This document shows, piece by piece, positions 4,084-17,654 of a DNA stretch of 26,454 nt. The notes below the pieces were generated by a model. That model ran no database searches. It saw only the letters and a program-made list of their open reading frames with translations, and was not told the origin of the DNA. The DNA is from a virus. Where the stretch lies: the IMG/VR virus record IMGVR_UViG_3300017770_000128, positions 1-26,454 of that record; one strand, given 5' to 3'. How positions within the stretch are numbered: position 1 is the first letter of the stretch; the number at the start of each line of letters is the position of its first letter. A program made the translations under genes and the position numbers.

Positions 4084-7000
4084 TTAACAATTAATTATTT
4101 GAATTACTAAACCACTTGTACCAACTTGCATATACTGAGTGTTTGATATTTTATAATAACCTAAAGGTAAGAAATTTACTATTCCTAAATTACTATCTTC
4201 ACAATTTGAACTTGTATATATTGAACTTCCTACTATTGGTAAAGCATTACTTCCGTTATTATGATAATAAGTGCTTGATCTAACTAACCCACAAGCATCT
4301 TGTGGTTGCTCTGTTCCAGAACTTGCAAGAAATGAAGTACAACTCCATGTACATAAACAACAAGCATCATTAGCTGAATTTGCATCATAACACAATTGTT
4401 GTGCAGAAATTTCTCTTACGTCATATATCACATATAAATATTGATTATTTGTAGGTAAACTTAAATTTGATACAGTTGCTAAATGAATATTAGTTGATGG
4501 ATTAGTAACAGCACTATTAGGTATTGTAGTTGCAGCTGCTAATAATGAAGCTACTCCTGAAGGTGTGTTTGGATATAAAGTATTAGAAGATAAGTATCTA
4601 AAATTATCTTGAGGGTAACTCCAATCATATGTATCAAAGTTAACTTTGTTAACTCTAATAGTAAAATTCACCCCACTGTAAGGAAAAGTTCCTTGTGATC
4701 TAACACCAACCTGACTATTATAAAAACTAAATATAGTATTATTAGAACCTAATGTTGCCATGTCACTATCAACAGGACTAATAGAAGTTGTATCTGCCCA
4801 ATTGTATTCTACGTGTATAGTTTGGCCACTATTAGTACTTGAATTTATTAAACACTTAAATACTGTTAATGGAGTTTTGACTACACATTCAGGTGTTACA
4901 CTATAAGTTGCTGTTCCCCCAGGTGTAATTTTTATTGTTGCTGTTGTAGGTGTGGCAGATGATTTAGTCCAACTAAAGTTTCCAGATCCTGTAACGCTAC
5001 CTGAATTAAAATTATTACCATTCCATGAAACATTTATAGTTATACTACCTGAAGTAACATTATAAGCTACGTTTGAAGCTCCAATTATAGTTCCATACTC
5101 ATAAGTATTAGAAACTATTTGATTTTGGTTTTTAAAATTTATTTCTACTCCACAACCATAAACAGGGTCTGGAACAGGAATTGAATTTAAGTTAGTACCT
5201 ATTACATACTCGTCCATAAAAGGATCGTACCCTCCTATTTTTTGTGTATTGAGCTGAAAGTTGAATTGGTCTCTAAACCAAGATCTCATACCCAAATCAG
5301 ATATTACTTTTAATCTGTCATTCACAGAATTACCAACCAGTTCGATAACAGCTCCTCTTTTAGTATCTGTAAAATAAAAGTAAGCTCCATAGTTTGCAAA
5401 ACTTTCTGGATTATAACTAATACCATATTCTTCTACACGAGCTATTTGCGTCCCTAAAACTTGAGGCACTGAAGCAATAACACCACCACCTGTTGAATCG
5501 CTAATAATATTTTTAGATGCAAGTACATAACTAATTCTATCTTCTTGCAATGTTAAAATATCTGTTTCTCTTGCAAACAATAATTGTATAGGGCCAAATG
5601 AAGTTTCTAAAGTTTTAAAATTAGCTAATCCTAAATTAAATTCATTAAGATTATTTAATCCTGAACTACTACTGTATACTCCACTGTATGTTAAATCAGC
5701 AAATCTATTTGTTTCTTTAAAATCTTGTTGTGACGCTGCCAATCCTCTTTGACCCATTACTACAGATCTTCCTTCTATTCTATCTAAATATTTAAAACTT
5801 TCTACTCCGTTACCAAACGTGTAACAATCCATAAAATCTAAAGTTACTATAGCTGGTTGATTTAAAGTTTGATTTTGATCTCCAGCATCAGTATCATTAT
5901 CTGATTGATGTAACATAATTCCTGTACCTCCATTTCTAACTAAAGGCAATGCTCTCGATGCATCATAGTATATCTCTTCATTTGCATCAGCTGGCTGTGT
6001 TTCAAAAACTAATACTGAATTAGCTCTTTGTACAACTATGTCAGCTTTGACCGTCATTGTTTTGTTACCAATATTAAAAGGTTCGTCTACTCCAATACCA
6101 CCACATCTAACACCTAACCATAAAGGACTGGTTACATCTCCTGGAACTGCTTGTATAAATTGAAAAGTCATGGTAAATTTCCCATTACAATCTACATTGT
6201 TAGCACGTTTATAAGTTCCGCCTGAGCCACTTATTGATGGATCAATACCACTACCAGATGGTGTAGCAAACGCATTGGAATATTCACCAGTACATTCTAC
6301 GTTTACACAAAGATCTGCTTCAAGATCAATATTAGATGCTGTCCACCAATCTGCAAAATCATTAAATGTTTCCGAAGCAACAAATGTTTTTTCTATTCTC
6401 CAATGTCTTATAGGTGCGCCTAATCCATTACCTCCCCTTCTAAATTCAAACATAACCTCTATTATTGAACCTCCAGGAATATTGTAATTTGTAGTTGAGT
6501 TATTAGCTTGATCATATGTAAATAACGGATAAGATAAAGCCCATACCGTACCACAAGCATTTTCACTATCACTACCTCGACTTCTTTCTCCATAATCTAT
6601 TATAGCGTCATCACTAATTTCAATACTAAAATTAGATGCTTTAAGCTGCATATAAAGTCCTGCTAATTGCTCAGAGTTTGCTCCAAGCTCTTGCTCTCCG
6701 TTTAAAAAATCAGAACTTTGAGCTTCAACCGCAAGTACAGTTGTTTCAACTAAAGATGTTAATGCACCCCCAGTATCTCTTTTTACAATAATTCTATCTC
6801 CTGTCTTTACTTTATTGGTGTTATCTCCTTCTAATTTAAAGTGAGTTACATTATCAAAAGGATTGGTGTAAAAGAAATTTGTATATATTGTCTCATAACC
6901 TGCTTTACTTGGCTTTACTACGAATTTATATTTAGTTGCCCAAGTAGGAGCATAGTTGTTTACTGTTACTTGTATTCTGTTTTTATTTACACTTGATGCA

Positions 7001-8880
7001 GGGGGAATGTAAATAGTGTTGTATTCAGAAACTAAAACCGTAGAGGCTCTGGCATATTCATCCATATACACAATACCTGTTTCAAAATCTCTATTACTAT
7101 GTAAACTATTTTTATTTATATTACTACTGTACTGTACATTAAATCTTATAAATCTAAAATACTCATACATGTTACTTGTAACACCGCCCGTAGTGTTAGT
7201 ATAGTTCATTGCCAATAACTGAATTGTAAATGAAGATGAACCAGGAGTTCCTGATATTTGAAATCCTTGCTGTACGGTAGAAGATGTTACACTACTTATA
7301 TTTTTTGTAAAAGCACATGTTATTTGAGGCGGCACTAAAGCTGCATTAAATCTATCTGTAAGAGAGAAACCTTGATCAGCTGTTGCCATTGGTTCAAAGT
7401 TTGTGCTTTCAATAGTTCCAATTGCATTTTCAAAATCAGATGATGTAACAAAATCATATGTATTAGCATAATTTTGTGTAAGATTTATTACTACACCTAT
7501 TGAAGTATCTGCAGTTTTAAAACCAGCATTATCTTGATAACAAGTAGTGCCAGTAGTTCCATTTATTAATGCATGTTCAAATCTAATATTTAAAACAATT
7601 TGTGACCCTTGTTTTAATTTATCTTCTATTTCAGCTAAATTTACAGTTGCTAAAGAGTTTGCTACTGTGGTTGTAGTTGCAGCGTTTATAGTATAATTTA
7701 CACCTGTTGAAAACACAGGCCCTGCTAAATTTTTAAAATCTAATGCTGTCTCAAATAAAGATGTAGAAAAGTCTAAAGGTATGTTTTGAAGGTTTATATT
7801 AACTATATCAAAACCATCACTGTAATTTCCATATATTAATCGGTTACCCATTATTGTTTGAGCTTGCGCTTTTAAAGGAACATTATCGTATAATCTTAGC
7901 AATTCATCCGCACCAATAACTGAATATATTTTACTGTTTGTAAAAACATATTCTTGATGAGTGTTATCTGCCCATCCGTAATCTTCTTTTTTAAACCTTT
8001 CAATTACGTATATACTGTTAGTATTTGAATCTTTATAAAGTAAATCCACTTGAACTACCCTGTCACTTCCTGTACTAAATTGTACTTTAGCTCCATTAAA
8101 ATTATTAGACATACCTGCATTATCATAAGTTCTTGTATCAAACCTAAAATTACCAGGTTGAAATGCTGCTAAACTAAATAATGATGTAGCACTGTATTCA
8201 TTATTTAGATATTTGTATCTATATGCAAAACTTATAAATCTATCTTCTAAATAATTTTGTCCTCCAGCCGCATTAATTAATGAAAACGTAGGAGCTGGTA
8301 AAGGAATACTACCCGATGGTAGTAAATCTTCAAACCCTGGTGGTTTTAATATTACTGAAATATCTTCTTCTTCTATACCGTCTGTATTACCTGTAGGAAA
8401 ATCATAGTTACTTGTAACATTAATTCTCCTTGGAGGATTTTTACCATCAGTAAAAAACAATAAGTTTTCAATTTTATCTACACCTGTTACTAAATACTCA
8501 GGGTCAAACTTTAAAACGTCTAATGTTATTACATGATATATAAGTTGATCAGTTTGTGTATTAAAAGACACAATCATATCTACCGTTTCGTCTTGAGCTA
8601 CTGGATTATCTGGATCATGAACAAACCAATATATGGTTTCTAACTGACCATCATCAAATGCACCGAGACACTTAGCTAAAGGAGACAAAGGTTGACCGCC
8701 ATAACTTAATGTTGTCAAAGCAGAATTTCCTCTTGAATTTTCTACAGCACCTATTTCAGTGTTTTCAGTAGAACCTAAACGTACATTTATGGCATCAATA
8801 TATTCACCTGGCGGAAGAAGTCTTTCATCCACAGATTTATTCATTCTACCTGCAATAAAATTTGTATTTACTATTGGCAT
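4084..8880 (-). CDS. Tail stabilisation / 'muzzle' protein, 1598 aa
   Basis: The start motif NTNFIAGRMNKSVDERLLPP followed by GEYIDAINV is characteristic of the large podovirus stabilisation protein (the muzzle of crAss-like phages), which plugs the end of the short tail below the connector rings. A second family signature lies about two thirds along: ANYGAYFYFTDTKRGAVIEL, then GMRSWFRDQF and GGYDPFMDEYVIGTN. The body between them is beta-rich. The last about 110 residues are Cys-rich (ACCLCTWSC and a final Cys) and share a module with the next gene's N-terminus. Length is in the range for this family. It lies 4 nt after the second ring gene and leads into two tail genes, an arrangement that fits tail assembly order. 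Identification rests on remembered family motifs. Confidence 0.82.
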   Translation of the reverse strand: MPIVNTNFIAGRMNKSVDERLLPPGEYIDAINVRLGSTENTEIGAVENSRGNSALTTLSYGGQPLSPLAKCLGAFDDGQLETIYWFVHDPDNPVAQDETVDMIVSFNTQTDQLIYHVITLDVLKFDPEYLVTGVDKIENLLFFTDGKNPPRRINVTSNYDFPTGNTDGIEEEDISVILKPPGFEDLLPSGSIPLPAPTFSLINAAGGQNYLEDRFISFAYRYKYLNNEYSATSLFSLAAFQPGNFRFDTRTYDNAGMSNNFNGAKVQFSTGSDRVVQVDLLYKDSNTNSIYVIERFKKEDYGWADNTHQEYVFTNSKIYSVIGADELLRLYDNVPLKAQAQTIMGNRLIYGNYSDGFDIVNINLQNIPLDFSTSLFETALDFKNLAGPVFSTGVNYTINAATTTTVANSLATVNLAEIEDKLKQGSQIVLNIRFEHALINGTTGTTCYQDNAGFKTADTSIGVVINLTQNYANTYDFVTSSDFENAIGTIESTNFEPMATADQGFSLTDRFNAALVPPQITCAFTKNISSVTSSTVQQGFQISGTPGSSSFTIQLLAMNYTNTTGGVTSNMYEYFRFIRFNVQYSSNINKNSLHSNRDFETGIVYMDEYARASTVLVSEYNTIYIPPASSVNKNRIQVTVNNYAPTWATKYKFVVKPSKAGYETIYTNFFYTNPFDNVTHFKLEGDNTNKVKTGDRIIVKRDTGGALTSLVETTVLAVEAQSSDFLNGEQELGANSEQLAGLYMQLKASNFSIEISDDAIIDYGERSRGSDSENACGTVWALSYPLFTYDQANNSTTNYNIPGGSIIEVMFEFRRGGNGLGAPIRHWRIEKTFVASETFNDFADWWTASNIDLEADLCVNVECTGEYSNAFATPSGSGIDPSISGSGGTYKRANNVDCNGKFTMTFQFIQAVPGDVTSPLWLGVRCGGIGVDEPFNIGNKTMTVKADIVVQRANSVLVFETQPADANEEIYYDASRALPLVRNGGTGIMLHQSDNDTDAGDQNQTLNQPAIVTLDFMDCYTFGNGVESFKYLDRIEGRSVVMGQRGLAASQQDFKETNRFADLTYSGVYSSSSGLNNLNEFNLGLANFKTLETSFGPIQLLFARETDILTLQEDRISYVLASKNIISDSTGGGVIASVPQVLGTQIARVEEYGISYNPESFANYGAYFYFTDTKRGAVIELVGNSVNDRLKVISDLGMRSWFRDQFNFQLNTQKIGGYDPFMDEYVIGTNLNSIPVPDPVYGCGVEINFKNQNQIVSNTYEYGTIIGASNVAYNVTSGSITINVSWNGNNFNSGSVTGSGNFSWTKSSATPTTATIKITPGGTATYSVTPECVVKTPLTVFKCLINSSTNSGQTIHVEYNWADTTSISPVDSDMATLGSNNTIFSFYNSQVGVRSQGTFPYSGVNFTIRVNKVNFDTYDWSYPQDNFRYLSSNTLYPNTPSGVASLLAAATTIPNSAVTNPSTNIHLATVSNLSLPTNNQYLYVIYDVREISAQQLCYDANSANDACCLCTWSCTSFLASSGTEQPQDACGLVRSSTYYHNNGSNALPIVGSSIYTSSNCEDSNLGIVNFLPLGYYKISNTQYMQVGTSGLVIQIINC

Positions 8881-8884
8881 ATTT

Positions 8885-9808
8885 TTATTTTATCCATTTA
8901 TCTTGCCCTCTCATGTTCATCAAAAGGCGGCCAGGGTGTATGTTACTTAATCTTAATTTTGCATTTCTTAAAAGAGAAGACTTATCTTTTCTTGCTCTAC
9001 TTACAACATATTCTTGAACTCCAAGCCTGCCGTTTAAAATAGCAAAACGGATATATGCATATATATAATCTTCAAATAATTTATTTAAACTAACTGAAGC
9101 ATCATTTCCATTTTCCATTCCGTCAGAGACGTATTCTAAAACTATAGACATTACTCCTCCAGAAGAACTAAAATTAATAACTCCACCCTTTTTATCTATA
9201 GTAAATACAGGGTTTACATTTGCTGTTTCAGTATTTAATCCAAACCTTGCTCCTACTGCATAATCAAAATACCAACAACCATCTACGTTGTATCCTTCTT
9301 GACCGTCAAAGAGACTGTTAGAGTTTAAATAAATACTTCTTCCTCCTGATGTTATTCTTGCTAAATCTACTTCACTATCCTGTGGACTAAGAACATTACC
9401 ATCTTGATCAAATAATAAATTAGAATTATTATCTTGTAAATATGCGGCAGCAAAACTTGTCTGAATATTTTCAGTTAGCGGAAGTAAAACTCCATTTTTC
9501 CATTGAGATATTCTTACCCAATTTACATAATCAGATGGTAAAATAAATCTATAGTTACTATCTAAATCTAATTGTAATATTTTAATTTCTTTTAAAGCAT
9601 CATAGTTCAGTTCTTGTATTCCACGTTTTGCGTGAAACAAGACTTGAAATCTATTTAGATTATTTACTAATTCATGATTACCTTGATAGATAAGCATAAA
9701 ATTATTTACTATGTCTTCTAATGATATATACTGATATGAACCCCAATTTGCATCATTAGGGTTTACCTCGTTATTAGTATAATATTGATATTGATTTATA
9801 TATGCCAT
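8885..9808 (-). CDS. Head-tail connector ring protein, 307 aa (crAss-like)
   Basis: The N-terminal half is helical, with YISLEDIVNNFMLIYQG and FHAKRGIQELNYDALKEIK. The strand-turn YRFILPSDYVNWVRIS follows. This order is typical of neck ring/adaptor proteins of crAss-like and other Bacteroidota podoviruses. The C-terminus RLSNIHPGRLLMNMRGQDK is a recognisable family ending. The middle part is beta-rich and probably forms the ring's outward domain. It starts 1 nt after the preceding ring gene and stops 4 nt before the muzzle gene, so the three are very likely co-transcribed and assembled in that order under the portal. Confidence 0.75.
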   Translation of the reverse strand: MAYINQYQYYTNNEVNPNDANWGSYQYISLEDIVNNFMLIYQGNHELVNNLNRFQVLFHAKRGIQELNYDALKEIKILQLDLDSNYRFILPSDYVNWVRISQWKNGVLLPLTENIQTSFAAAYLQDNNSNLLFDQDGNVLSPQDSEVDLARITSGGRSIYLNSNSLFDGQEGYNVDGCWYFDYAVGARFGLNTETANVNPVFTIDKKGGVINFSSSGGVMSIVLEYVSDGMENGNDASVSLNKLFEDYIYAYIRFAILNGRLGVQEYVVSRARKDKSSLLRNAKLRLSNIHPGRLLMNMRGQDKWIK

Positions 9809-9809
9809 A

Positions 9810-10778
9810 TTAACTTGTTTCTTGTGTGTCTATACTTTCTTGTCCCAACGCATACTCAACAACATCTCCTTCTCTAATTTCTACCCCAGCGTATTGTAAT
9901 ATTTTCATTATTAAATTAGGCTCATCTGATAATGGTAATTCAAAACTTTGATACAAAGGATCAGAAGCATTGAATATAGGATCATTTCCAGAAGTCTCTA
10001 AATAAGTCCAATTAGGCGTAAACGGATATCTAATATACTGACAAACGACTTGACCTTGCTCATATATAGAAATAGGATACATCTTAGCCGCTAAAGCATC
10101 TTGAGTGTATGCAGGGTAAGTTAGAGTTGGTTTTGTTAAAAGAGAGTTGTCTAAAAGTGTAATTTTAGAATGAGTTACTTTTTCAGCTTCTTTAATATCC
10201 GAACTATTAAATATAGAATAACTTATTCCTGTTGCAGTTAAATTGGTTGCTTCTAATTCCAGTTGTGTTTGTGAAGTAACTACTTCTACTACTGCATTAA
10301 AAGGAATACCACCTACAACATATCCTACTATATCTCCAGCAACAACACCATTTGTTATAAAGGTAGCATTAGTATCAATAAGTTGATTGTTACCTACTAC
10401 TGCAGTATTTGTTCCCGTAGCTCTTACTGTTTGATAAATTAATATTTTGTTTAGTAAATAATAGTCACTTCCATTCAAAGTTGTGGTAGGAAGTGTATAT
10501 AAACTTTTATTTAATTGAGCTGTACTTTGGTTTAACAAAGGACTAATAATGCTAAACGTATCTATAACCTCTTCTAAGCCTTTTACAATATCTGCATAAC
10601 CTGTTCCAGAGGTTCTATTATTTTCTCTGTTAATCCAGTTGTTATATTGGTAAAAGTAATCCTCAAACATATCCATTTGCGCTTGCAAACAATACAAATT
10701 AAAGTCTTGAGGAGAAAGGTATCCGTAATTGTTTTTATTGAGTACAGCTAATACTGTATTTCTTACAGAATTTATCAT
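9810..10778 (-). CDS. Head-tail connector ring protein with inserted beta domain, 322 aa
   Basis: The N-terminal helices (residues 1-50, including YLSPQDFNLYCLQAQMDMFE) resemble the portal-proximal ring proteins of crAss-like phages. Residues about 120-192 look like an inserted beta domain with the pattern 'N-x-L-I-D-T-N-A-T-F...GDIV...V-x-x-V-x-S...T-G-x-x-Y-x-I-F', a small module found inside many unrelated phage structural proteins. The C-terminus returns to helix (EPNLIMKILQYAGVEIREGD). The gene is first in the neck/tail unit: a TATCTTTG element ends 15 nt before its ATG, directly after a terminator. It is followed by the 307-aa ring gene with a 1-nt gap. Confidence 0.72.
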   Translation of the reverse strand: MINSVRNTVLAVLNKNNYGYLSPQDFNLYCLQAQMDMFEDYFYQYNNWINRENNRTSGTGYADIVKGLEEVIDTFSIISPLLNQSTAQLNKSLYTLPTTTLNGSDYYLLNKILIYQTVRATGTNTAVVGNNQLIDTNATFITNGVVAGDIVGYVVGGIPFNAVVEVVTSQTQLELEATNLTATGISYSIFNSSDIKEAEKVTHSKITLLDNSLLTKPTLTYPAYTQDALAAKMYPISIYEQGQVVCQYIRYPFTPNWTYLETSGNDPIFNASDPLYQSFELPLSDEPNLIMKILQYAGVEIREGDVVEYALGQESIDTQETS

Positions 10779-10793
10779 TGATTTCTTTTTTTA

Positions 10794-10801
10794 CAAAGAT
10801 A
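10794..10801 (-). promoter_or_regulatory. Promoter -7 element TATCTTTG for the neck/tail unit
   Basis: Reads TATCTTTG on the minus strand, matching TAnnTTTG of Bacteroidota promoters. It begins 2 nt past the T-tract of the upstream terminator and ends 15 nt before the ATG at 10778, implying a short leader. No -33 element is recognisable because the terminator hairpin occupies that place. Confidence 0.65.
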
Positions 10802-10803
10802 GC

Positions 10804-10838
10804 AAAAAAAAAAGAGGCCTATTTTTTTTAAGCCTCTT
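10804..10838 (-). terminator. Rho-independent terminator after the 109-aa gene
   Basis: On the minus strand the arms AAGAGGC and GCCTCTT pair perfectly. They extend inward by a G-U and two A-U pairs around an A-rich loop, and are followed by a run of ten T. The element lies 25 nt past the stop at 10863. It is the only textbook intrinsic terminator I see in the window. Confidence 0.85.
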
Positions 10839-10862
10839 CTATTTTTTGAATGTTAACGTAAT

Positions 10863-11192
10863 TTAAGCAGAGTATTCCACTTCTATTTGAGCTATTGATG
10901 TAATAGCAAATTTAGGCTCAAGAACGAAGTAAGGATTTAACCAACTTGTTGCTAATGCTTTTTCAATCGCATCTACAATGCTGTTTAATTGCTCTTTAGT
11001 TTTAGCTGCATCCGCTGCTGTTGTAGCAACGAGTTCAACTCCTAATACTTCTGACGCTCCAGTAGCTCTGTGACCTACTGAATTGTAAAGAATGTTAACT
11101 TTAGTGTCTACTCCCACTTCTATTCCAAGTATGTTTTTAATTGGAATTAAGTGATAAGCTCCACTTAAACTGATTTTTAGAAATTTTTCCAT
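10863..11192 (-). CDS. Small conserved virion protein candidate (head decoration?), 109 aa
   Basis: A compact alpha/beta protein. Strands at the start (MEKFLKISLSGAYHLIPIKN) and around VDTKVNILYN are followed by a helix (DAAKTKEQLNSIVDAIEKAL) and C-terminal strands ending IAQIEVEYSA. It has no signal peptide. Small proteins beginning 'M-E-K-F-L-K-I' are, to my recollection, common close to the capsid gene in marine phages, but I cannot name a function. It is the only gene here framed by its own promoter-like element (11236-11243) and a strong terminator (10804-10838). That makes separate, probably high expression likely and suits a multi-copy head protein such as a decoration protein. This role is inferred. 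Confidence 0.75.
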   Translation of the reverse strand: MEKFLKISLSGAYHLIPIKNILGIEVGVDTKVNILYNSVGHRATGASEVLGVELVATTAADAAKTKEQLNSIVDAIEKALATSWLNPYFVLEPKFAITSIAQIEVEYSA

Positions 11193-11235
11193 CTTTAAAA
11201 AAAAAAATAAATGTTATATGAGACTATTCTCAATA

Positions 11236-11243
11236 CAAAGATA
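11236..11243 (-). promoter_or_regulatory. Promoter -7 element TATCTTTG before the 109-aa gene
   Basis: Minus-strand TATCTTTG, flanked upstream by AT-rich sequence, lies in the 58-nt gap between the 251-aa gene (stop at 11251) and ATG at 11192. It ends 43 nt before that ATG. The rest of the leader ends in a long T-run followed by AAAG immediately before ATG. Confidence 0.65.
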
Positions 11244-11250
11244 CAAGTTA

Positions 11251-12006
11251 TTATTTATTACTATTTAAGCGTTTTTTTAGCAACTTGTACGTTTCGATTC
11301 CTTCATCGGATTGAAATAAAGATGCCACAATATAATATGGATCTTCACCAAATGGAACAGTTAATAGTTTGGTTTTATTTTTTGGTAGATTAAAGTAAAC
11401 ATCTTTCCCTGCATTTTTCATAGTTAAAAATGAATGGTTAAAAAACTGAACCACATCATTTGTTAGTTCTAACATAGGATCATTTAATGTTTCTATAAAG
11501 TCAAACGGATCATTTTGTGCATAAACCATTACGTCTCTTTTTATTTCTGCCGTAGACATACGATCAACACTTGCTCCTATTAAAACTCTTGCTACCGCTA
11601 ATAAGCTATCCCCTTTTAATTCTTTAGCTTGAATCATTGCTTCTACAGCTTGTTCTACTATTTCTAACTCTTCAGATGCATCACGAGCTTTATCTACTGC
11701 TTCGTATACTCTTCCGTTAGAAGGATGATAGTGTAAAAATTTTTGTAATACTTGATTTTGTTTTGGAACAAATAACATTCCATCTTCAAATACAATTGGT
11801 TCTAATACTGCATTTCCATCCTGCTCGTCTTCAAACGGGCTTTTTTGGTTTCTTGCATATCTTAGTGGTCTATTAATTCCTTTATCTTCATCGAAATATA
11901 ATAAAGGTGAACGTTTTGAGTGGCGAGAAGCCAACATATAACTTAAAGGCGCACGCTCTTGAATTAGTCTATAAGCTACGTCTATATACTTTTGTGTGTT
12001 TTTCAT
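11251..12006 (-). CDS. Conserved phage head-module protein, 251 aa
   Basis: The N-terminal half contains ERAPLSYMLASRHSKRSPLL, then RPLRYARNQKSPFEDEQDG and IVFEDGMLFVPKQNQVLQKF. The C-terminal half is helical and acidic (SEELEIVEQAVEAMIQAKE) with a basic end (YKLLKKRLNSNK). I recognise the 'LRYA-x-N-Q-K-[ST]-x-F-E-D-E-Q-D-G' block as recurring directly after the capsid gene in marine phages, but know no assigned function. Candidates are a head-completion protein or a cargo protein. It follows the capsid gene after a 72-nt gap holding a hairpin and no promoter-like element, so it is probably expressed by read-through from the capsid transcript at a reduced level. Confidence 0.72.
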   Translation of the reverse strand: MKNTQKYIDVAYRLIQERAPLSYMLASRHSKRSPLLYFDEDKGINRPLRYARNQKSPFEDEQDGNAVLEPIVFEDGMLFVPKQNQVLQKFLHYHPSNGRVYEAVDKARDASEELEIVEQAVEAMIQAKELKGDSLLAVARVLIGASVDRMSTAEIKRDVMVYAQNDPFDFIETLNDPMLELTNDVVQFFNHSFLTMKNAGKDVYFNLPKNKTKLLTVPFGEDPYYIVASLFQSDEGIETYKLLKKRLNSNK

Positions 12007-12037
12007 TTGATATAATTTAATTTTAATTTAAAAATAA

Positions 12038-12064
12038 TTACCCCCGTCTTTGCAACGAGGGTAA
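12038..12064 (-). terminator. Hairpin after the capsid gene, possible attenuating terminator
   Basis: The arms TTACCCTCGT and ACGGGGGTAA pair over 10 bp with one T-G wobble and a 7-nt loop. On the minus strand TTATTTT follows, a weak T-tract. It starts 15 nt past the capsid stop. No promoter-like element follows before ATG at 12006, so partial termination or protection of the capsid mRNA 3' end is more likely than full termination. Confidence 0.6.
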
Positions 12065-12078
12065 ATATTACTTACTTA

Positions 12079-13545
12079 TTATGCATCTTGAAATAAGAAG
12101 AAGTTGTTTGCTCCTAAAACACAAACAGCTCTTTCAGTCAAGAAGTTTACTTCCATAGCATCTAAAGAAGATGTTTTTGCTCCACCAGCAGAACCAGTGA
12201 TCCAAGTCTTGTATCTTCTATCTTCAGTTTCAGAAGCTCTGTAACGAACATGTAAGAAAGGACGCTTAGCATTCTTTCCTAAGATTTGATCGTAAACTGT
12301 AGTTGAACCAGCAGGAACTAACATTCCGTTGATTGCTCCACCTACAAGACCACCTCTCATTGTCGGGTCGTTCAGATATTTCCAGTCAGACTTGTAAAAG
12401 TCATAACCTCTTCTAAATCCTGAGAATCCAAGATTTAAAGCCATCTCTTCATCATTGTCAAATAAACCATATGAAGTACCACCAGCTCCGTAAGAGTTTT
12501 GTGCTGCTAACATATCGTCAATGTCAAATGAAAAGTCTCTATTTACAAAAAGAACATTTTCTTCAATAGCTCCTTGCTTGTCTAATCTTTGGATAATAGA
12601 ATCAAATTCAGCAAGAGTTGTTGGATTACCTCCACCAAATACATTACCTCTTTGTCCTACTACAAAGAATACACCTTCAGAACCATTTAAGTTTGCTGCA
12701 GACGCACCAGCACCAACTCCTTGGAAAAAGTCTCCTGCTCCAGAAGTAGCTTCTGCAGGCACAGCTTCAATCATAGCTGTCTCCATATAGTCTTCAAAAC
12801 GTAATCTTGTGTCATGCTCAGATTTTAAATACCATAGGTATCCGCTTACGCCATCTTCACCTGATACTTCGATCCATCCGATTTGAGCCATATCAGAACC
12901 AGAAACAGAATACTTGTCTTTGATAATGATTGGTTTGTTATCGAAAATAAAATCGTCAGATTCATTAGATCCTACCATACCATCAGTTCCTTTGTTAAAT
13001 TCAGAACCATAGATAAAGATATCACACGCTACACCAGCTCCCATTACTTGTCCGCTTGCTTCATAGTAAGCAATTGTTACAACGTTTGGCGCACCAGCTG
13101 TAGGTGCTACTGTAATTACACCTTTGTTGGTTAAATTTGAACCAGGTGTTTTGTCAGAGATCATTACTGTTTGTCCAACTCTTAACGATGCTGTGTTAGG
13201 TGTTCCACCTAAAGCAGGGTTAAAGTTAGAAACATTGTTTGGAATAGTCCATACTGCTGATCTTGTTCCTGCACCAGCTGCTGATCCAGATGTGCAATTT
13301 TGATATTTTACATGCAATCTTCCTTGCTCAGCCCATTTGATAAGGTCAGAGTTAGAAGGCATTTCAGCTCCTACCAATCTTAGGAAGGAGGATACGCTTC
13401 GATTACCATATCTTTCAAACTCTTTTTCATAAGTGTCAGGTAAATACTGATTTAAGAAATTGAAGTCTGTAATATAGTTGCTTTCCAACGGCACTTGTTG
13501 TGCTGAAGGTTGTAAGTCGAAACCAGGGGTTACATTTACTGCCAT
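12079..13545 (-). CDS. Major capsid protein, 488 aa (HK97-fold type expected)
   Basis: This gene occupies the capsid position: after portal and scaffold candidate, before neck proteins. The N-terminus has a helical segment TDFNFLNQYLPDTYEKEFER, then RSVSSFLRLVGAEMPSNSD and LIKWAEQGRLHVKYQ (about residue 70). These are features I associate with crAss-like and related Bacteroidota phage capsid proteins. The middle is Gly/Ser/Ala-rich beta sequence, and the C-terminal third includes the helix-turn region LAEFDSIIQRLDKQG and a final strand AVCVLGANNFFLF. Length near 490 residues fits that group. The HK97 fold is assumed for all tailed phages, not read directly. A hairpin lies just after the stop. 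Confidence 0.85.
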   Translation of the reverse strand: MAVNVTPGFDLQPSAQQVPLESNYITDFNFLNQYLPDTYEKEFERYGNRSVSSFLRLVGAEMPSNSDLIKWAEQGRLHVKYQNCTSGSAAGAGTRSAVWTIPNNVSNFNPALGGTPNTASLRVGQTVMISDKTPGSNLTNKGVITVAPTAGAPNVVTIAYYEASGQVMGAGVACDIFIYGSEFNKGTDGMVGSNESDDFIFDNKPIIIKDKYSVSGSDMAQIGWIEVSGEDGVSGYLWYLKSEHDTRLRFEDYMETAMIEAVPAEATSGAGDFFQGVGAGASAANLNGSEGVFFVVGQRGNVFGGGNPTTLAEFDSIIQRLDKQGAIEENVLFVNRDFSFDIDDMLAAQNSYGAGGTSYGLFDNDEEMALNLGFSGFRRGYDFYKSDWKYLNDPTMRGGLVGGAINGMLVPAGSTTVYDQILGKNAKRPFLHVRYRASETEDRRYKTWITGSAGGAKTSSLDAMEVNFLTERAVCVLGANNFFLFQDA

Positions 13546-13563
13546 TTTTTTAATTTTTAATTG

Positions 13564-14703
13564 TTAATTTTTTTTAATACTTCTAATTTTGAGTCCTCTT
13601 CCGCTACTACTGTCACCAATTGGGCGAATCTTTAAACCATCTTTTGTTGATAGCTGTGGCGATTTACGTACATCCATATTAATGTTTTTGGATTTACGTG
13701 TAACATCATCCACTGCTGCTGCAACACCTTGGTCATAAAAGAACTGAGCAAACTTTTCTGGATTCATTGCAACCGATAAGGCTTTATGGTATCCATTTGC
13801 ATCTGACATTAAACCATCTTTGTTAATGTATTTATTTACAAAGTTGTTTACGTCTGACTGCTTGTTCATCAATTCATCTGCTGTACCTGGTTTATAATTA
13901 ATCTTTTTTTCACCAACCTCAAATTCAAAACCTTTGAACTCATTGTTAAACACTTCTTTAGTGCGGCTTAAAAAGTAATCATATCGCTTTTCATTACTTT
14001 CAGCAATTGTTTTTGATTCCTCTATATACTTATTATAGTCACTTAATTTTTTTTCCTGATCATCAGATAATCCATCCCTGCTTGACTCAAGAGGAATTTT
14101 ATATTTATCTTTCTGTTCAGTAAAAAACTTACGTGCCTTAGCAAGTTCTCTTTTTTTAGCTAATTTTATTTTTCTAATATCTTTTTCATCATCATCTTCA
14201 TCATATCCAAACTTGTCATCCATTAAGTCTTGAATATCAATAGCATCCAAACCTTCTTCTTGAATAGACATATAATCAGCTATCACTGCGTCTTCTTCCA
14301 TGTTATCGTAGTCTTTTTGTAATTTATAAAAGTCTTCGATTCCACGACCAGTTTCTTTTTTATACTCAAAATACTTTAAAACATCTTCAGGTAATTTTTC
14401 ATTTGATTCTTTGGTCTCAAATAATTGATCAACTGATTCAATGTCTTTATTGTATCTTTCTTTTATATATGAAAGAACGTTATCATCATTTACCCCTGAT
14501 GATTCAGGTATATCTTTAGAAGTATTTTCAACTTCTTTAGTTTCAACTTCTTTTGCTTGCTCTGGAGCTTCTACCTTTACTTCTTCTACTTTATCTACAG
14601 GTTTTTCCTGAGATGTAGTTTCTTCGTGTTTTTGCAGTAACTGCTCTTCTATTTCAGCTTTAGATTTTTCATTTCCACTAACTTCTTTTACTTGTAATTT
14701 CAT
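13564..14703 (-). CDS. Probable capsid scaffolding protein, 379 aa
   Basis: A highly charged protein. Residues about 1-65 are Glu/Lys-rich and low in complexity (EEVKVEAPEQAKEVETKEVE); acidic clusters follow (DDKFGYDEDDDEKDI), then Lys/Glu helices probably forming coiled coils. The basic C-terminus has two copies of a short motif, GLKIRPI and GLKIRSI, the last ending in KKN. An acidic, helical protein with a basic tail directly upstream of the capsid gene is the usual picture of a scaffold, whose basic tail binds the capsid protein. No protease motif is apparent. A TAnnTTTG element ends 16 nt before the start. The capsid gene begins 18 nt after its stop, so the two are probably co-expressed. 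Confidence 0.68.
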   Translation of the reverse strand: MKLQVKEVSGNEKSKAEIEEQLLQKHEETTSQEKPVDKVEEVKVEAPEQAKEVETKEVENTSKDIPESSGVNDDNVLSYIKERYNKDIESVDQLFETKESNEKLPEDVLKYFEYKKETGRGIEDFYKLQKDYDNMEEDAVIADYMSIQEEGLDAIDIQDLMDDKFGYDEDDDEKDIRKIKLAKKRELAKARKFFTEQKDKYKIPLESSRDGLSDDQEKKLSDYNKYIEESKTIAESNEKRYDYFLSRTKEVFNNEFKGFEFEVGEKKINYKPGTADELMNKQSDVNNFVNKYINKDGLMSDANGYHKALSVAMNPEKFAQFFYDQGVAAAVDDVTRKSKNINMDVRKSPQLSTKDGLKIRPIGDSSSGRGLKIRSIKKN

Positions 14704-14719
14704 TTGATTTAATTTTTAA

Positions 14720-14727
14720 CAAAGTTA
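14720..14727 (-). promoter_or_regulatory. Promoter -7 element TAACTTTG before the scaffold/capsid unit
   Basis: Minus-strand TAACTTTG fits TAnnTTTG. It lies in the 53-nt gap between the 43-aa ORF (stop at 14757) and ATG at 14703, ending 16 nt before the ATG. The gap is otherwise AT-rich. A TTTG lies upstream near 14760, too far for a normal -33 element. Confidence 0.5.
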
Positions 14728-14756
14728 ATACTTATTTAATTATATATTTTAGCTGT

Positions 14757-14888
14757 TCAAATATTACAAAAACGTCTTTTGGATTCCCATTGGACTTTTT
14801 TTGATTTACCCAACATACTTTTTCTACTAACCCTTTTATTAAAATCTTCTCTTGCTTGATTTAATTGTGGGCCTGCTGTTTTTTGCAT
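14757..14888 (-). CDS. Small basic protein, 43 aa
   Basis: This short frame starts at 14888, and its ATG overlaps the TGA stop of the basic 109-aa gene as TGATG. That arrangement suggests translational coupling. The peptide (MQKTAGPQLNQAREDFNKRV..., ending in CNI) is Lys/Arg-rich in its second half, with RKSMLGKSKK and ESKRRF. It fills an otherwise empty 184-nt space in a region where every other gap is tiny. I do not recognise it. It could be a real packaging-module peptide or the decayed remains of a longer gene. Confidence 0.5.
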   Translation of the reverse strand: MQKTAGPQLNQAREDFNKRVSRKSMLGKSKKVQWESKRRFCNI

Positions 14889-15217
14889 CATTTTTTTATA
14901 TTTTTATCAAGAACTTTAGGACCTCCTTTTTTAGCTAAATGTTTAGCTGCAAATTTGCCAATTTGTTTAGCGCCACTTAAAATTTTTCCGCCGCCTATCC
15001 ATCCTCCGCCTACAATGCCACCTTTCATTTTTGGCTTGGGAAGAGGTTTAAGATTTTTAGCATACTCTTTTAGTTTAGCTTTTTGTGCCTCTGATTGTTT
15101 TTTTGTTATTAGTTTTTTACGAGGTTTAGTAGGAACGTTTGTTACAGTACGTGTAGACTCTTTTGCTATCGCAGCAGGTCTTTGTTTTTTTCTTTTTTTC
15201 TTATCTAATTTACTCAT
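14888..15217 (-). CDS. Very basic small protein with Gly-rich amphipathic segment, 109 aa
   Basis: Strongly Lys/Arg-rich from the start (KLDKKKRKKQRPAAIAKES), with further clusters PRKKLITKKQ and LKPLPKPKMK. It then has a Gly-rich hydrophobic stretch (residues about 66-80, GGIVGGGWIGGGKIL) leading into a cationic helix (SGAKQIGKFAAKHLAKKGG). The charge suggests nucleic-acid binding, and the C-terminal part resembles membrane-active cationic peptides. No known family is recognised. It starts 1 nt after the portal stop and overlaps the 43-aa ORF. Possible roles are a DNA-binding packaged protein or a portal-associated assembly factor; both are guesses. Confidence 0.68.
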   Translation of the reverse strand: MSKLDKKKRKKQRPAAIAKESTRTVTNVPTKPRKKLITKKQSEAQKAKLKEYAKNLKPLPKPKMKGGIVGGGWIGGGKILSGAKQIGKFAAKHLAKKGGPKVLDKNIKK

Positions 15218-15218
15218 A

Positions 15219-17654
15219 TTATCTTGGGTTAAATTCTGCTAAATCAAAACCATCTAAACTATCTTCATTAGATTCAAAAGTTATTGGAGGTAAGTTTCTT
15301 TTTCTTTGCTCAATCATTTTAGATTGTTGCGAGTTAGCCATAGTAATTCTATCTGACTTACCTTTTTCTTTAGCTTGTTCACGTAAATCAATTTGTTTTT
15401 GTTCTAAACCTCTTAGTTGCATATTATATGCAAATTCAGTTTCCATTAGTTGTGCTTTTAATGCAGCTTCGTTTTTAAGCTTTTCGATATCCATAGCAAC
15501 CTCTTGTTGTTTTAATTGCATTTTACCTTGGATTTCCATTTGTGCTTTTTGTTGGTCAGCTTGAGCCTGAGCCATTATACCAGCTTGCTGTTGTTCAGCT
15601 TGTGCTGCTTGCTGTTGTTGCATTTGTTGCATTTCTGCATCCTGCTTTCTTTTTCTTTTTACTTTTAATAATTGGTTAGCCATTTTTAAATTATGGATTT
15701 CCCTAATATCAATAGCGTCTTCTAAGCTTATATCATTTTTAGATAAAGCCATTTGTATGTTTTGTTCAAGCATTTGCTTTTGTTCTTCATCAGGAGACAT
15801 TTCTAAGAAAACACCAAAATCATATAAATAGAAATCTTTTAAGTCTTCTAATATTCTTAAATTGTATTTACCAATCTGCATTGCAAATTGATTTTTAAAT
15901 GAAGAATATTCTAAAATATCTGCAGTTCTTATAACTACACCTTCTGCTAATCTTTTAGTCATATACAAACTACTGTTTAATATATGCCTTGTAGCAGTAT
16001 TAGAACTAAGAGCTGCAAGTTTTTGAACACCGACTAAAGCATCTGGATTAGGACTTGAAGCATCTCGTGCCTCATTTAATCCTGTGACTGTTCTAATCAT
16101 ATCCATATAATGATTATAGTTACCTATAAGCATTTGAAGTTTTCCAGCACCACTACTTGAAGTTAATTGCTGAATAGGTTGTCTTGCATTATTAAACTCT
16201 CCATCTTGAGTATAAGATCTACCAACTACAGAACCTGTTTGGAAGTAAAGTCTTAATGCATCTTCTGGATTGTATGCGTTTCCTGTTCCTAAGTCAACTT
16301 CATTTAAACCATCAGCATCAATAAAAACTCCATCAGGGACAACACGTGAAACTACTTGTTGTATTTTTAAATGTGTTATTTGTATTAAGTCTGCAAAAGG
16401 AATCATTCTTCTAACTAAAGACTCGTAAACTCCTTTATACATTCTTGGCGCACAAGCCACATAATTAGGCATTGCATGTTGAGATGCAGACTTAGGTCTT
16501 ACCATATTTTCTGCCAGCTCCCATTTTAGCATAATATTAGTACCCATAACCATGATACCATCATACCAAACTTCTATATTTTTTTCTATTCTTTCGAATT
16601 TACCTTCCTCTTGCATTTCTGTTGGAGGATTAAATTCATCTGTTTTACTTACTACTTTAAAACTTCCGTCCGCCATTTCTTTCTTTTTATAAACAAAAGA
16701 ATGAGTCGTTTTATAATTGAAATATAATAAAGTAACAGTGTCACGCATAAACATACTATTCTCATAGTACTGTGCGTTATTATAATAGTTGTACCAAGAT
16801 TGACTATACTTGGATATAGTTTCCATTTCTTCATTAGTAATATCAGGATTTATTTTGACCAACTCTGACATTGGTATAGTTTTAATTTCACCCCAATAAA
16901 AACAATCTTTAAAATAAGGATCTTCTGTATAGCTATAAACAACATTAGCTGGATCAACATAATCTAATTGAACACCTTGTCCTGGCAAGAATTGATGTTT
17001 TGCCATACTAACTCCAAGAGTCATTAAATCGTAATCACATCTTTTTCTAATTTCTTGATATTGGTTTTTATTTAAAATCGTATCAATTGCTTCTTCTGCA
17101 GCTATCTCTATTGCTGGTTTGTACTTCATTTGCATAAACAACTGAAGTTCTTCGTCATCATTAGGAAGTTCAGATTCTTCTGTTTGAAAAACATTAACTC
17201 CAAAGTCTTGTTCGATTTGTTGAAATAAAGGTCGAGCTATCATCTCACCTTCTATTTGTTTTTGAAACTCATTTCTTTTTTCAGCCGACATTGCGTCTTC
17301 CGCAAATGCTTTTACTTTAAAAAGTCGGTCATTCAATCCATTAACTACTATGTCTACAAATTTGGGAATAACAGGAACTGGTGTCCAATCTAAATTTAAG
17401 TAACTTAAATCTCCGTCTACTGCAATTTCGTTTTTATATTTAGATACAGATTGTTCTCCACGAGCATAAAGTCTAAGTCTGTTAAACTCTCCCCATTGAT
17501 TAAAAAATCTACATGTACTATTATCTTTTCTAAACCACTCGTACTGTATCGCCTGCCCTACTTGTAGGCCGTACTCCATGGTATCTTTTTGTGCGTCAGT
17601 AACAAACTGATCAGGAAAAGCGGCTTGATTAATTTGTATATTTACCTCTTTCAT
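15219..17654 (-). CDS. Portal protein, 811 aa
   Basis: Placed directly after the large terminase with a 4-nt ATGA overlap, the classic portal position. The N-terminal third has RLRLYARGEQSVSKYKNEIA, then VPVIPKFVDIVVNGLNDRLF. Further on come YDLMTLGVSMAKHQFLPGQG, VDPANVVYSYTEDPYFKDCF and YWGEIKTIP, which I recognise from crAss-like portals. The central part holds RMIPFADLIQITHLKIQQVV, and then RTVTGLNEARDASSPNPDAL, typical of the portal stem/crown region. Residues about 671-760 are extraordinarily Gln-rich, forming a probable helical barrel. The end (ITFESNEDSLDGFDLAEFNP) is acidic. Length is in the range for crAss-like portals. Confidence 0.88.
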   Translation of the reverse strand: MKEVNIQINQAAFPDQFVTDAQKDTMEYGLQVGQAIQYEWFRKDNSTCRFFNQWGEFNRLRLYARGEQSVSKYKNEIAVDGDLSYLNLDWTPVPVIPKFVDIVVNGLNDRLFKVKAFAEDAMSAEKRNEFQKQIEGEMIARPLFQQIEQDFGVNVFQTEESELPNDDEELQLFMQMKYKPAIEIAAEEAIDTILNKNQYQEIRKRCDYDLMTLGVSMAKHQFLPGQGVQLDYVDPANVVYSYTEDPYFKDCFYWGEIKTIPMSELVKINPDITNEEMETISKYSQSWYNYYNNAQYYENSMFMRDTVTLLYFNYKTTHSFVYKKKEMADGSFKVVSKTDEFNPPTEMQEEGKFERIEKNIEVWYDGIMVMGTNIMLKWELAENMVRPKSASQHAMPNYVACAPRMYKGVYESLVRRMIPFADLIQITHLKIQQVVSRVVPDGVFIDADGLNEVDLGTGNAYNPEDALRLYFQTGSVVGRSYTQDGEFNNARQPIQQLTSSSGAGKLQMLIGNYNHYMDMIRTVTGLNEARDASSPNPDALVGVQKLAALSSNTATRHILNSSLYMTKRLAEGVVIRTADILEYSSFKNQFAMQIGKYNLRILEDLKDFYLYDFGVFLEMSPDEEQKQMLEQNIQMALSKNDISLEDAIDIREIHNLKMANQLLKVKRKRKQDAEMQQMQQQQAAQAEQQQAGIMAQAQADQQKAQMEIQGKMQLKQQEVAMDIEKLKNEAALKAQLMETEFAYNMQLRGLEQKQIDLREQAKEKGKSDRITMANSQQSKMIEQRKRNLPPITFESNEDSLDGFDLAEFNPR

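Follow-up and report, generated by a model that had tools for sequence, protein, structure and literature searches.

Comparison of the late regions of related phages of marine flavobacteria identifies a fused, putative terminator-promoter junction as a near-fixed boundary of this phage group, with the 109-aa gene as an optional insert upstream of it. We consider this gene to be, somewhat more likely than not, an optional, strongly expressed virion-protein gene at a fixed operon boundary, its product being most likely capsid-associated (decoration-type) and probably made in many copies. The window, that is, the whole stretch of DNA analysed, is a 26.5-kb phage contig from a virus record, with the late genes on the minus strand in the order large-terminase-like gene, portal, scaffold-like gene, capsid, a 251-aa gene, the 109-aa gene, and neck and tail genes; the terminase, scaffold, capsid and neck roles rest in part on position and on comparison with annotated relatives. 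The closest named relatives are MW202828 (an environmental record), Maribacter phage Panino, the Flavobacterium elemo phages and the Cellulophaga phages of the Pervagoviridae/Pachyviridae.

All features mapped here between positions 9810 and 14727 are on the minus strand. A promoter-like box, TAACTTTG (14720-14727), lies 5' of the scaffold-like and capsid genes, directly before the ORF at 13564-14703. The 488-aa gene that follows (12079-13545; PHROG 13704, 'virion structural protein', E = 2e-101) was assigned as the probable major capsid protein gene from its position and strong codon bias. The 251-aa gene (11251-12006; PHROG 34748, unknown function, E = 9e-29), the 250-aa gene of the comparisons below, is a conserved neighbour with matches in 85 phage records. 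It is separated by the slot, which holds the optional 109-aa gene of an uncharacterised superfamily (10863-11192), from the first gene of the neck/tail unit, which encodes 322 aa (9810-10778; PHROG 14543, virion structural protein, E = 8e-28) and is called a neck gene by position.

Residues ~121-205 of the 322-aa neck protein form an inserted region that is absent from five aligned relatives and overlaps a weak tail-fibre PHROG match (E = 7e-4); identity of this insert with that of a 184-aa slot protein in locus L178 received no support from BLASTP (E = 0.062 over 26 residues). A second, Lys/Arg-rich 109-aa ORF (14888-15217) lies between the portal and scaffold-like genes, has no PHROG or Pfam match at E 0.1 and, by eye, is unrelated to the slot protein. 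Giant proteins of ~3,700-3,860 aa, 'structural' in the elemo annotation, end the late region in L078 (18718-29802) and MW202828 (741-12320).

Putative stop and start signals around the 109-aa gene

As originally predicted, the 109-aa gene has a promoter-like element of its own, the -7 box TATCTTTG at 11243-11236, 43 nt before the ATG (11192). Downstream of the gene lies a hairpin, AGAAGAGGCTTA...TAGGCCTCTTT (10810-10840; -16.7 kcal/mol, z = -4.5), which none of 200 shuffled sequences matched in folding, followed by a T10 tract (10804-10813). Two nucleotides (GC) past this tract, as had also been proposed, stands a second TATCTTTG (10801-10794), the putative -7 box of the neck/tail unit, which ends 15 nt before the neck-gene ATG at 10778. 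A GC-rich hairpin, a directly adjoining T-tract and compensating changes in the stem, the sequence features by which an intrinsic terminator is recognised, are all present, and transcription would be expected to stop here.

Both boxes are consensus matches to the Bacteroidota -7 box, TAnnTTTG, close upstream of gene starts; this sequence has been described as the sigma-A box of F. psychrophilum, at positions -12 to -5 (PMC9723704). Judged from box position, transcripts would start near 11231 and 10789, giving a leader of 39 nt for the 109-aa gene (11193-11231) and one of ~11 nt for the neck gene. No TTG, the core of the -33 TTTG motif in the B. fragilis consensus, occurs in the 45 nt before the junction box; we did not take this motif as required for flavobacteria because it was reported not to be identifiable in F. 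johnsoniae (PMC7366714). In seven related records, 82 non-coding promoter-like sites, about ten of which are the fused junctions themselves, were A/T-rich and T-enriched near the box, and the T-tract of the terminator therefore fits as the upstream part of a promoter, so that one T-run could serve both signals. A sigma-70 scan of 5000-17000 returned 69 sites versus 55.9 +/- 7.9 in shuffled sequences; such a scan is uninformative for Bacteroidota and misses the TAnnTTTG boxes.

The slot terminator had also been described as the only strong intrinsic terminator of the window, a claim that did not hold, since a second predicted terminator hairpin 3' of the capsid gene (12038-12064; -17.8 kcal/mol, z = -6.1) is more stable than the slot hairpin, with a poorer T-tract and no TAnnTTTG after it. 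When relatives were scored by a lax fold test, 83 of 98 distinct intervals between the capsid gene and the next gene among the matches listed had a post-capsid terminator, for which reason, too, the slot terminator would not be the sole one; a simple scan gave 2 to 9 terminators per record. With no promoter box after the 12038-12064 hairpin, the 251-aa gene of the window would need read-through or an unseen promoter. The lax test also scored 11 capsid-to-250-aa intervals as fused, several of which are plain A/T-rich matches, and this count was set aside. In elemo and MW202828, a fused terminator-promoter follows the capsid gene, where the window has a hairpin without a box.

Conservation of the junction with and without the 109-aa gene

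We collected 81 109-aa genes including that of the window, 79 of them with at least 80 nt of downstream sequence, some contigs being near-duplicates. A hairpin, a T7-or-longer tract and TAnnTTTG with 2-3 nt spacing followed the gene in 78 of the 79 loci, and L059, the one exception, departs from this layout in that its T-tract is interrupted. Upstream, TAnnTTTG was found within 70 nt of the 109-aa gene in 73 of 78 loci, and TATCTTTA in the other five. The 54-nt junctions comprise 29 distinct sequences, in whose hairpins 232 of 232 pairs are kept over 8 stem positions, 7 of them variable with different pair types, compared to a mean of 193.6 and a maximum of 212 pairs in 2000 swaps of arms between sequences; the stem register was picked per sequence, which favours pairing, and the arm swap controls for composition, not relatedness. 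By this comparison, the predicted slot hairpin is preserved through compensating changes.

A further set of loci was chosen by the neck or capsid gene, not by the 109-aa gene, taking the best 80 of each list; from 166 loci, exclusion of 13 without a usable neck start, 2 with an unclear start and 39 duplicates left 112 distinct junctions. Among these matches listed, 100 of the 112 passed a strict test for a fused junction preceding the neck gene (83 of 92 where a slot gene is missing and 17 of 20 where one is present), and the spacing from box to T-run in those 100 was 1-3 nt in 98 and 6 or 8 nt in two. On inspection by eye, nine of the 12 misses have the layout except for a single defect, namely TATCTTTA in L200 and L208, an imperfect hairpin in L211, L212, L218 and L307, or a short or interrupted T-tract in L297, L146 and L148. 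The layout is clearly absent at the neck gene in three of the 112 junctions among the matches listed: L075 (Panino), L147 (phi46:3) and L244. Panino (L075:14336-15439) and phi46:3 (L147:6941-9406) carry clusters of small unrelated genes at the same boundary, and the head-neck boundary is therefore an insertion hot spot in a wider sense.

The layout is rare elsewhere in these genomes. When the strict test was run on the 585 ORFs of seven related phage records, 10 passed. These comprised all seven neck genes, two genes that immediately follow the capsid gene, and one slot gene; every pass fell within the head-neck region and none elsewhere. Other criteria applied to the same 112 junctions, among the matches listed, gave 103 of 112 (an earlier criterion) and 108 of 112 (a lax fold-based test, with a background of 13 of 585); the latter figure was set aside because the lax test accepted Panino, which has no hairpin abutting a T-rich stretch. 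Two other slot subfamilies contributed 55 further distinct junctions; all 55 passed the lax test, and 53 the strict one (32 of 34 and 21 of 21; the misses are L337 and L338). In one slot subfamily the box lies 8 nt from the first T-run in 18 of 32 distinct junctions, so the spacing is not rigid everywhere.

The same fused junction is found in named phages. Elemo and MW202828, in which the 109-aa family is absent, have it where the 250-aa gene is immediately followed by the neck gene, and phi38:1 and Calle_3 have it at the neck gene with an interrupted T-tract. Because 83 of the 92 slot-less junctions carry the fused layout among the matches listed, the junction appears to be older than the 109-aa gene, and its presence in phages without that gene argues that it is not there for the gene's sake. 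The arrangement had been called unusual, which is right for its rarity within genomes, but at the neck position it is the rule even where the 109-aa gene is missing.

A model for the junction and its main alternative

We propose that the slot unit is a portable cartridge of three parts: a TAnnTTTG promoter, a leader of ~24-51 nt, which in many loci has a short inverted repeat at its 5' end and is rich in U ahead of the start codon, and a small ORF. Having no terminator of its own, it would borrow the conserved terminator-promoter junction found almost without exception in front of the neck gene. Host RNA polymerase would start at the slot promoter and produce a short, abundant mRNA ending at the hairpin and T-tract, and the terminator would shield the neck/tail genes from high-level transcription of the capsid region. 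Neck and tail genes, whose products are needed in few copies, would restart from TATCTTTG, with the terminator's own T-tract as its A/T-rich upstream region. A fused stop-start signal between head and tail genes would therefore make different expression levels possible. With only a few nucleotides between the two signals, a polymerase stopping at the terminator would reach into the next promoter, which makes either a hand-over or mutual blocking conceivable.

A simpler account, which we regard as possible but short of an even chance, is that of genome economy, by which terminator and promoter merely fit a short gap, with no coupling and with no relation to the nature of the protein; it is compatible with insulation of the neck/tail genes but denies a hand-over. 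The gaps are indeed short (115 of 144 intervals among the matches listed are at most 160 nt), the upstream part of flavobacterial promoters apparently has to be no more than A/T-rich, as any T-tract is, and the spacing reaches 8 nt in one slot subfamily. In T7, T3 and SP6, the distance between a terminator and the closest start site ranges from 14 to 1742 bp (PMC11347151). Economy would less readily account for a spacing that stays at 1-3 nt in all but two of the 100 strict junctions (among the matches listed) despite replacement of the hairpin sequence, or for the failure of every ORF outside the head-neck region of the seven records to pass the strict test.

The slot holds an optional, divergent superfamily

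A first scan of viral contigs yielded 72 loci related to the 109-aa gene. With tblastn, the gene had no match at E <= 1 in 50,697 phage records, where searches with two distant 109-aa relatives and with three slot proteins gave no match or chance matches only, and a pattern-based scan of bacterial genomes found no 109-aa relative. A profile of the family matched none of three named relatives (MW202828, elemo, Panino) and matched once in each of the eight viral contigs searched.

The interval between the 250-aa and neck genes exceeds 250 nt in 29 of 144 measurable loci among the matches listed. Except in Panino and phi46:3, these long intervals contain small genes whose products, by eye, have M-x-K near the start and mostly a T-S-W-like motif near the end. 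They include a 93-aa family, a 92-aa family (followed by a tandem 184-aa member) and a 95-aa family, as well as long forms of 388 aa (L266) and 235 aa (L274). Profile comparison joined the 109-aa family to three families from the same place with probabilities of 97.9, 96.5 and 94.8. The superfamily profile supported the 184-aa form and the 388-aa form, and the 235-aa form marginally (E = 0.005); the window protein has no direct BLASTP similarity to the 184-aa protein of L178 and is linked to it by this profile only. In two slot families that we fetched, all 124 loci were beside capsid, 250-aa or neck genes, and in all 114 checkable loci the slot gene lay between the 250-aa gene and the neck gene. 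By these profile and position data, the slot is occupied by one divergent, uncharacterised superfamily, mostly of 92-110 aa.

Optionality in close relatives was found for a sister slot family. What distinguishes loci L168 and L169 is a slot unit of 342 nt, comprising promoter, leader and gene, just upstream of a common terminator, with 5 differences in 78 nt on the left flank and 993 of 1000 nt identical on the right. Overall, a slot-superfamily ORF (E <= 1e-3) was present in 33 of the 166 neck/capsid-chosen loci among the matches listed, some of these loci being incomplete. Four of five clustered ORFs in L214 (526-2243) are profile-supported slot members, the ORF at 1156-1542 being the one without support, which suggests that units may be gained via duplication or recombination at junctions. 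The same cluster has a fused terminator-promoter before the last of its five tandem ORFs. The slot protein at L227:2609-2920 has a short collagen-like C-terminal tail (GPEGPPAP); collagen-like tails occur on displayed virion proteins.

The predicted leader of the window gene begins with a 5'-terminal GAGA-AUAG-UCUC hairpin (11220-11231; -3.3 kcal/mol, not significant alone, z = -1.0) and continues to a U11 run just before AAAG-AUG. Across the four slot subfamilies, a TTAACCC leader type occurs in 30 of 41, 16 of 27, 7 of 21 and 2 of 4 distinct leaders, and a GAGAn2-5TCTC type in 6 of 41 (the 109-aa subfamily), 0 of 27, 10 of 21 and 0 of 4. Within 45 nt of ORF starts in five genomes, TTAACCC was found at 6 of 407, three of the six being slot genes. 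Since leader types are common to several subfamilies, promoter and leader seem to have been kept or exchanged apart from the protein. We can offer a guess that the slot leader acts in translation or mRNA stability.

Codon bias and the likely abundance of the slot product

As a proxy for expression level, we measured the share of C-ending codons at two-fold NNY codons. In the window, this share is 0.59 (10/17) for the 109-aa gene and 0.47 for the capsid gene, and at most 0.28 for the other 20 genes; the slot gene is small, making per-gene values noisy. Pooled over relatives, in counts that include duplicate loci, the share is 0.51 for the capsid gene, 0.38 for the 109-aa gene, 0.31 for the 250-aa gene and 0.22-0.25 for neck genes; two other slot subfamilies have 0.36 and 0.37. 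Locus by locus, the capsid gene exceeds the scaffold-like gene in 60 of 60 cases, the 250-aa gene in 74 of 75, neck genes in 64 of 64 and 60 of 60, and the portal gene in 15 of 15. The slot gene exceeds the neck gene in 56 of 72, 68 of 73 and 35 of 35 loci. Its share is higher than that of the 250-aa gene in only 53 of 76, 42 of 73 and 36 of 42, and higher than that of the capsid gene in only 13 of 69, 5 of 41 and 9 of 33. The 250-aa gene itself has no other sign of abundance besides codon bias. These values fit a slot product less abundant than the capsid protein and more abundant than the neck proteins.

The 109-aa protein had been suggested to be a many-copy, decoration-like protein. An optional gene and a hypervariable slot are what is expected of decoration proteins, and the idea is therefore supported indirectly, along with the codon bias of the window gene (10/17, compared to 0.47 for capsid); in most loci, however, the capsid gene is the more biased. 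From sequence comparison, we infer transcription and termination of the slot unit as well as the copy number and capsid location of its product.

The main rival for the protein itself, which we rate as rather unlikely, is a moron-type accessory, that is, a non-virion protein (for superinfection exclusion, anti-defence or host modification) with its own promoter, inserted harmlessly at an operon boundary. It would account for the gene's promoter, its optional occurrence, the clean presence/absence between near-identical flanks, the rapid divergence and the lack of a known homologue, and unrelated small genes do occupy the same boundary in two isolates (five ORFs in Panino, eight genes in phi46:3). 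However, long-interval loci from viral contigs mostly hold one superfamily rather than unrelated genes, slot members also occur in tandem and enlarged forms, as displayed proteins do, and slot codon bias is shifted towards that of the capsid gene. Of the traits of a moron gene, the unit has a promoter of its own and an optional occurrence but no terminator of its own, since the terminator belongs to the fixed junction (L168/L169; 83 of 92 slot-less junctions, among the matches listed). A minor or assembly-only head protein of low copy number (a chaperone, head-completion or neck-vertex factor), its promoter a by-product of insertion, would suit a small gene between head and neck genes and has a parallel in gp57 of phiCrAss001, a portal-vertex-specific auxiliary protein (PMC10172136), but is improbable given that a slot ORF is present in only 33 of 166 loci (among the matches listed, some incomplete), unlike an essential completion factor, and that slot codon bias is above that of neck genes. 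Capsid decoration is, at somewhat better than an even chance, the most likely role of the slot protein.

Protein matches and predicted structure

The 109-aa protein has no significant match in Pfam or PHROGs (best E = 0.043 and 0.044), and the best PHROGs match of 42 members is to a family of unknown function (E = 0.0054). Searches of PDB sequence profiles gave best E values of 0.5 for the window protein and 0.25 for the superfamily profile, which we took as chance. The original prediction had named a head-fibre protein as one option; matches to such proteins stayed at chance level, the phi29 head fibre scoring E = 0.56 and 2 in the PDB profile search and one of 42 members matching the head-fibre PHROG 4366 at E = 0.016, with none found by the superfamily profile, and this option was dropped.

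An AlphaFold model built with the superfamily alignment reached a pLDDT of 87.2 and a pTM of 0.77. The rise in pLDDT from 74.2 once the slot families were added suggests that the alignment is sound. The predicted fold consists of five strands, a helix and two strands. Its resemblance to PH-like domains is weak (3ulc, Z = 5.3, rmsd 4.1, 70 residues aligned), as was that of an earlier, poorer model (Z = 6.1, rmsd 3.7, 79 aligned), both at a level that the tool calls uninformative. Decoration folds have been reviewed as beta-tulip, beta-tadpole, OB, Ig-like and knotted helical (PMC7602432); none of these five was recognised among the listed structural matches of the 109-aa models. In structure prediction, proposed earlier as a check on the protein, no decoration fold stood out. 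At E <= 0.001, Foldseek returned nine viral proteins, all uncharacterised and eight of them 91-110 aa long, and, for the first model against the PDB, no match at this threshold. These unnamed small viral proteins in the structure database thereby acquire likely relatives whose genomic address is known and whose role can be tested.

Relation to known systems and significance

Insulation of late genes by a terminator is familiar from T7, with its terminator T-phi after gene 10. In the T7-like phage LUZ100, a strong terminator stands right after the capsid gene (PMC10134795). In contrast to insulation of the T7 type, the slot terminator lies two genes further on, would serve a gene that is optional, and forms one fused element with the promoter that follows, which appears to be of the host sigma-A type. 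The slot gene is like the optional decoration proteins L Dec and T4 Soc/Hoc in being a small optional gene among virion genes; the Dec gene of phage L is a small extra gene in the virion region that is absent from P22, and in phage L the procapsid gene module is predicted to end in a terminator (PMC8022706, PMC7602432). Unlike these, the slot gene brings its own putative promoter and leader. Another point of comparison is gp36 of the Bacteroidota podovirus phiCrAss001, a two-domain auxiliary capsid protein of >300 residues with a PH-like domain, present in as many copies as the capsid protein and of a type found in most crassviruses (PMC10172136). The 109-aa models resemble PH domains only weakly (Z 5.3-6.1), and PDB profile searches found no sequence relation to gp36, nor was there a clear fold link. 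The word 'terminator' is absent from the phiCrAss002 paper (PMC8042965).

Rather than leaving the DNA at an intrinsic terminator, bacterial RNA polymerase can remain bound and begin anew at the nearest promoter, as described in vitro for the E. coli enzyme over up to ~1000 bp by estimate, and not for T7, T3 and SP6 polymerases (PMC11347151). The likeness to our junction is a terminator close to the next promoter, such that a terminated polymerase could restart; the differences are a distance of a few nucleotides and a presumably flavobacterial polymerase. By the same source, a terminator close to a start site is not new as such, the nearest in phages being 14 bp (PMC11347151). Among the titles and openings of abstracts covered, largely of open-access papers, we found no report of a fused terminator-promoter, of its context in this phage group or of a decoration slot. 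The kind of system is known; by the same coverage, the fused, position-fixed junction with interchangeable cartridges would be new.

A more far-reaching reading, which we put forward as speculative and on the whole doubtful, is that of a mobile 'display slot' in flavobacterial podoviruses, in which interchangeable cartridges dock in the fused socket and polymerase is handed to the neck/tail promoter, setting head-to-neck stoichiometry. Each cartridge would comprise a promoter, a conserved leader and a fast-diverging small capsid-surface protein, single, tandem or enlarged; the leading edge of the stopping polymerase would come to lie over the next promoter, and one 50-nt element would set the stoichiometry.

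For the reading that we favour, an optional, probably capsid-associated gene at a fixed boundary, the near-identical pair L168/L169 represents a natural presence/absence of one slot gene, and the slot as a whole provides a superfamily of optional virion-gene candidates adjoining the capsid gene. The fused junction also offers a compact system, provided by nature, in which to ask whether an RNA polymerase that has been released at a terminator starts again at the promoter abutting it. In sum, a widespread group of aquatic Bacteroidota phages appears to conserve an operon boundary to within a few bases while the sequence of its hairpin turns over.
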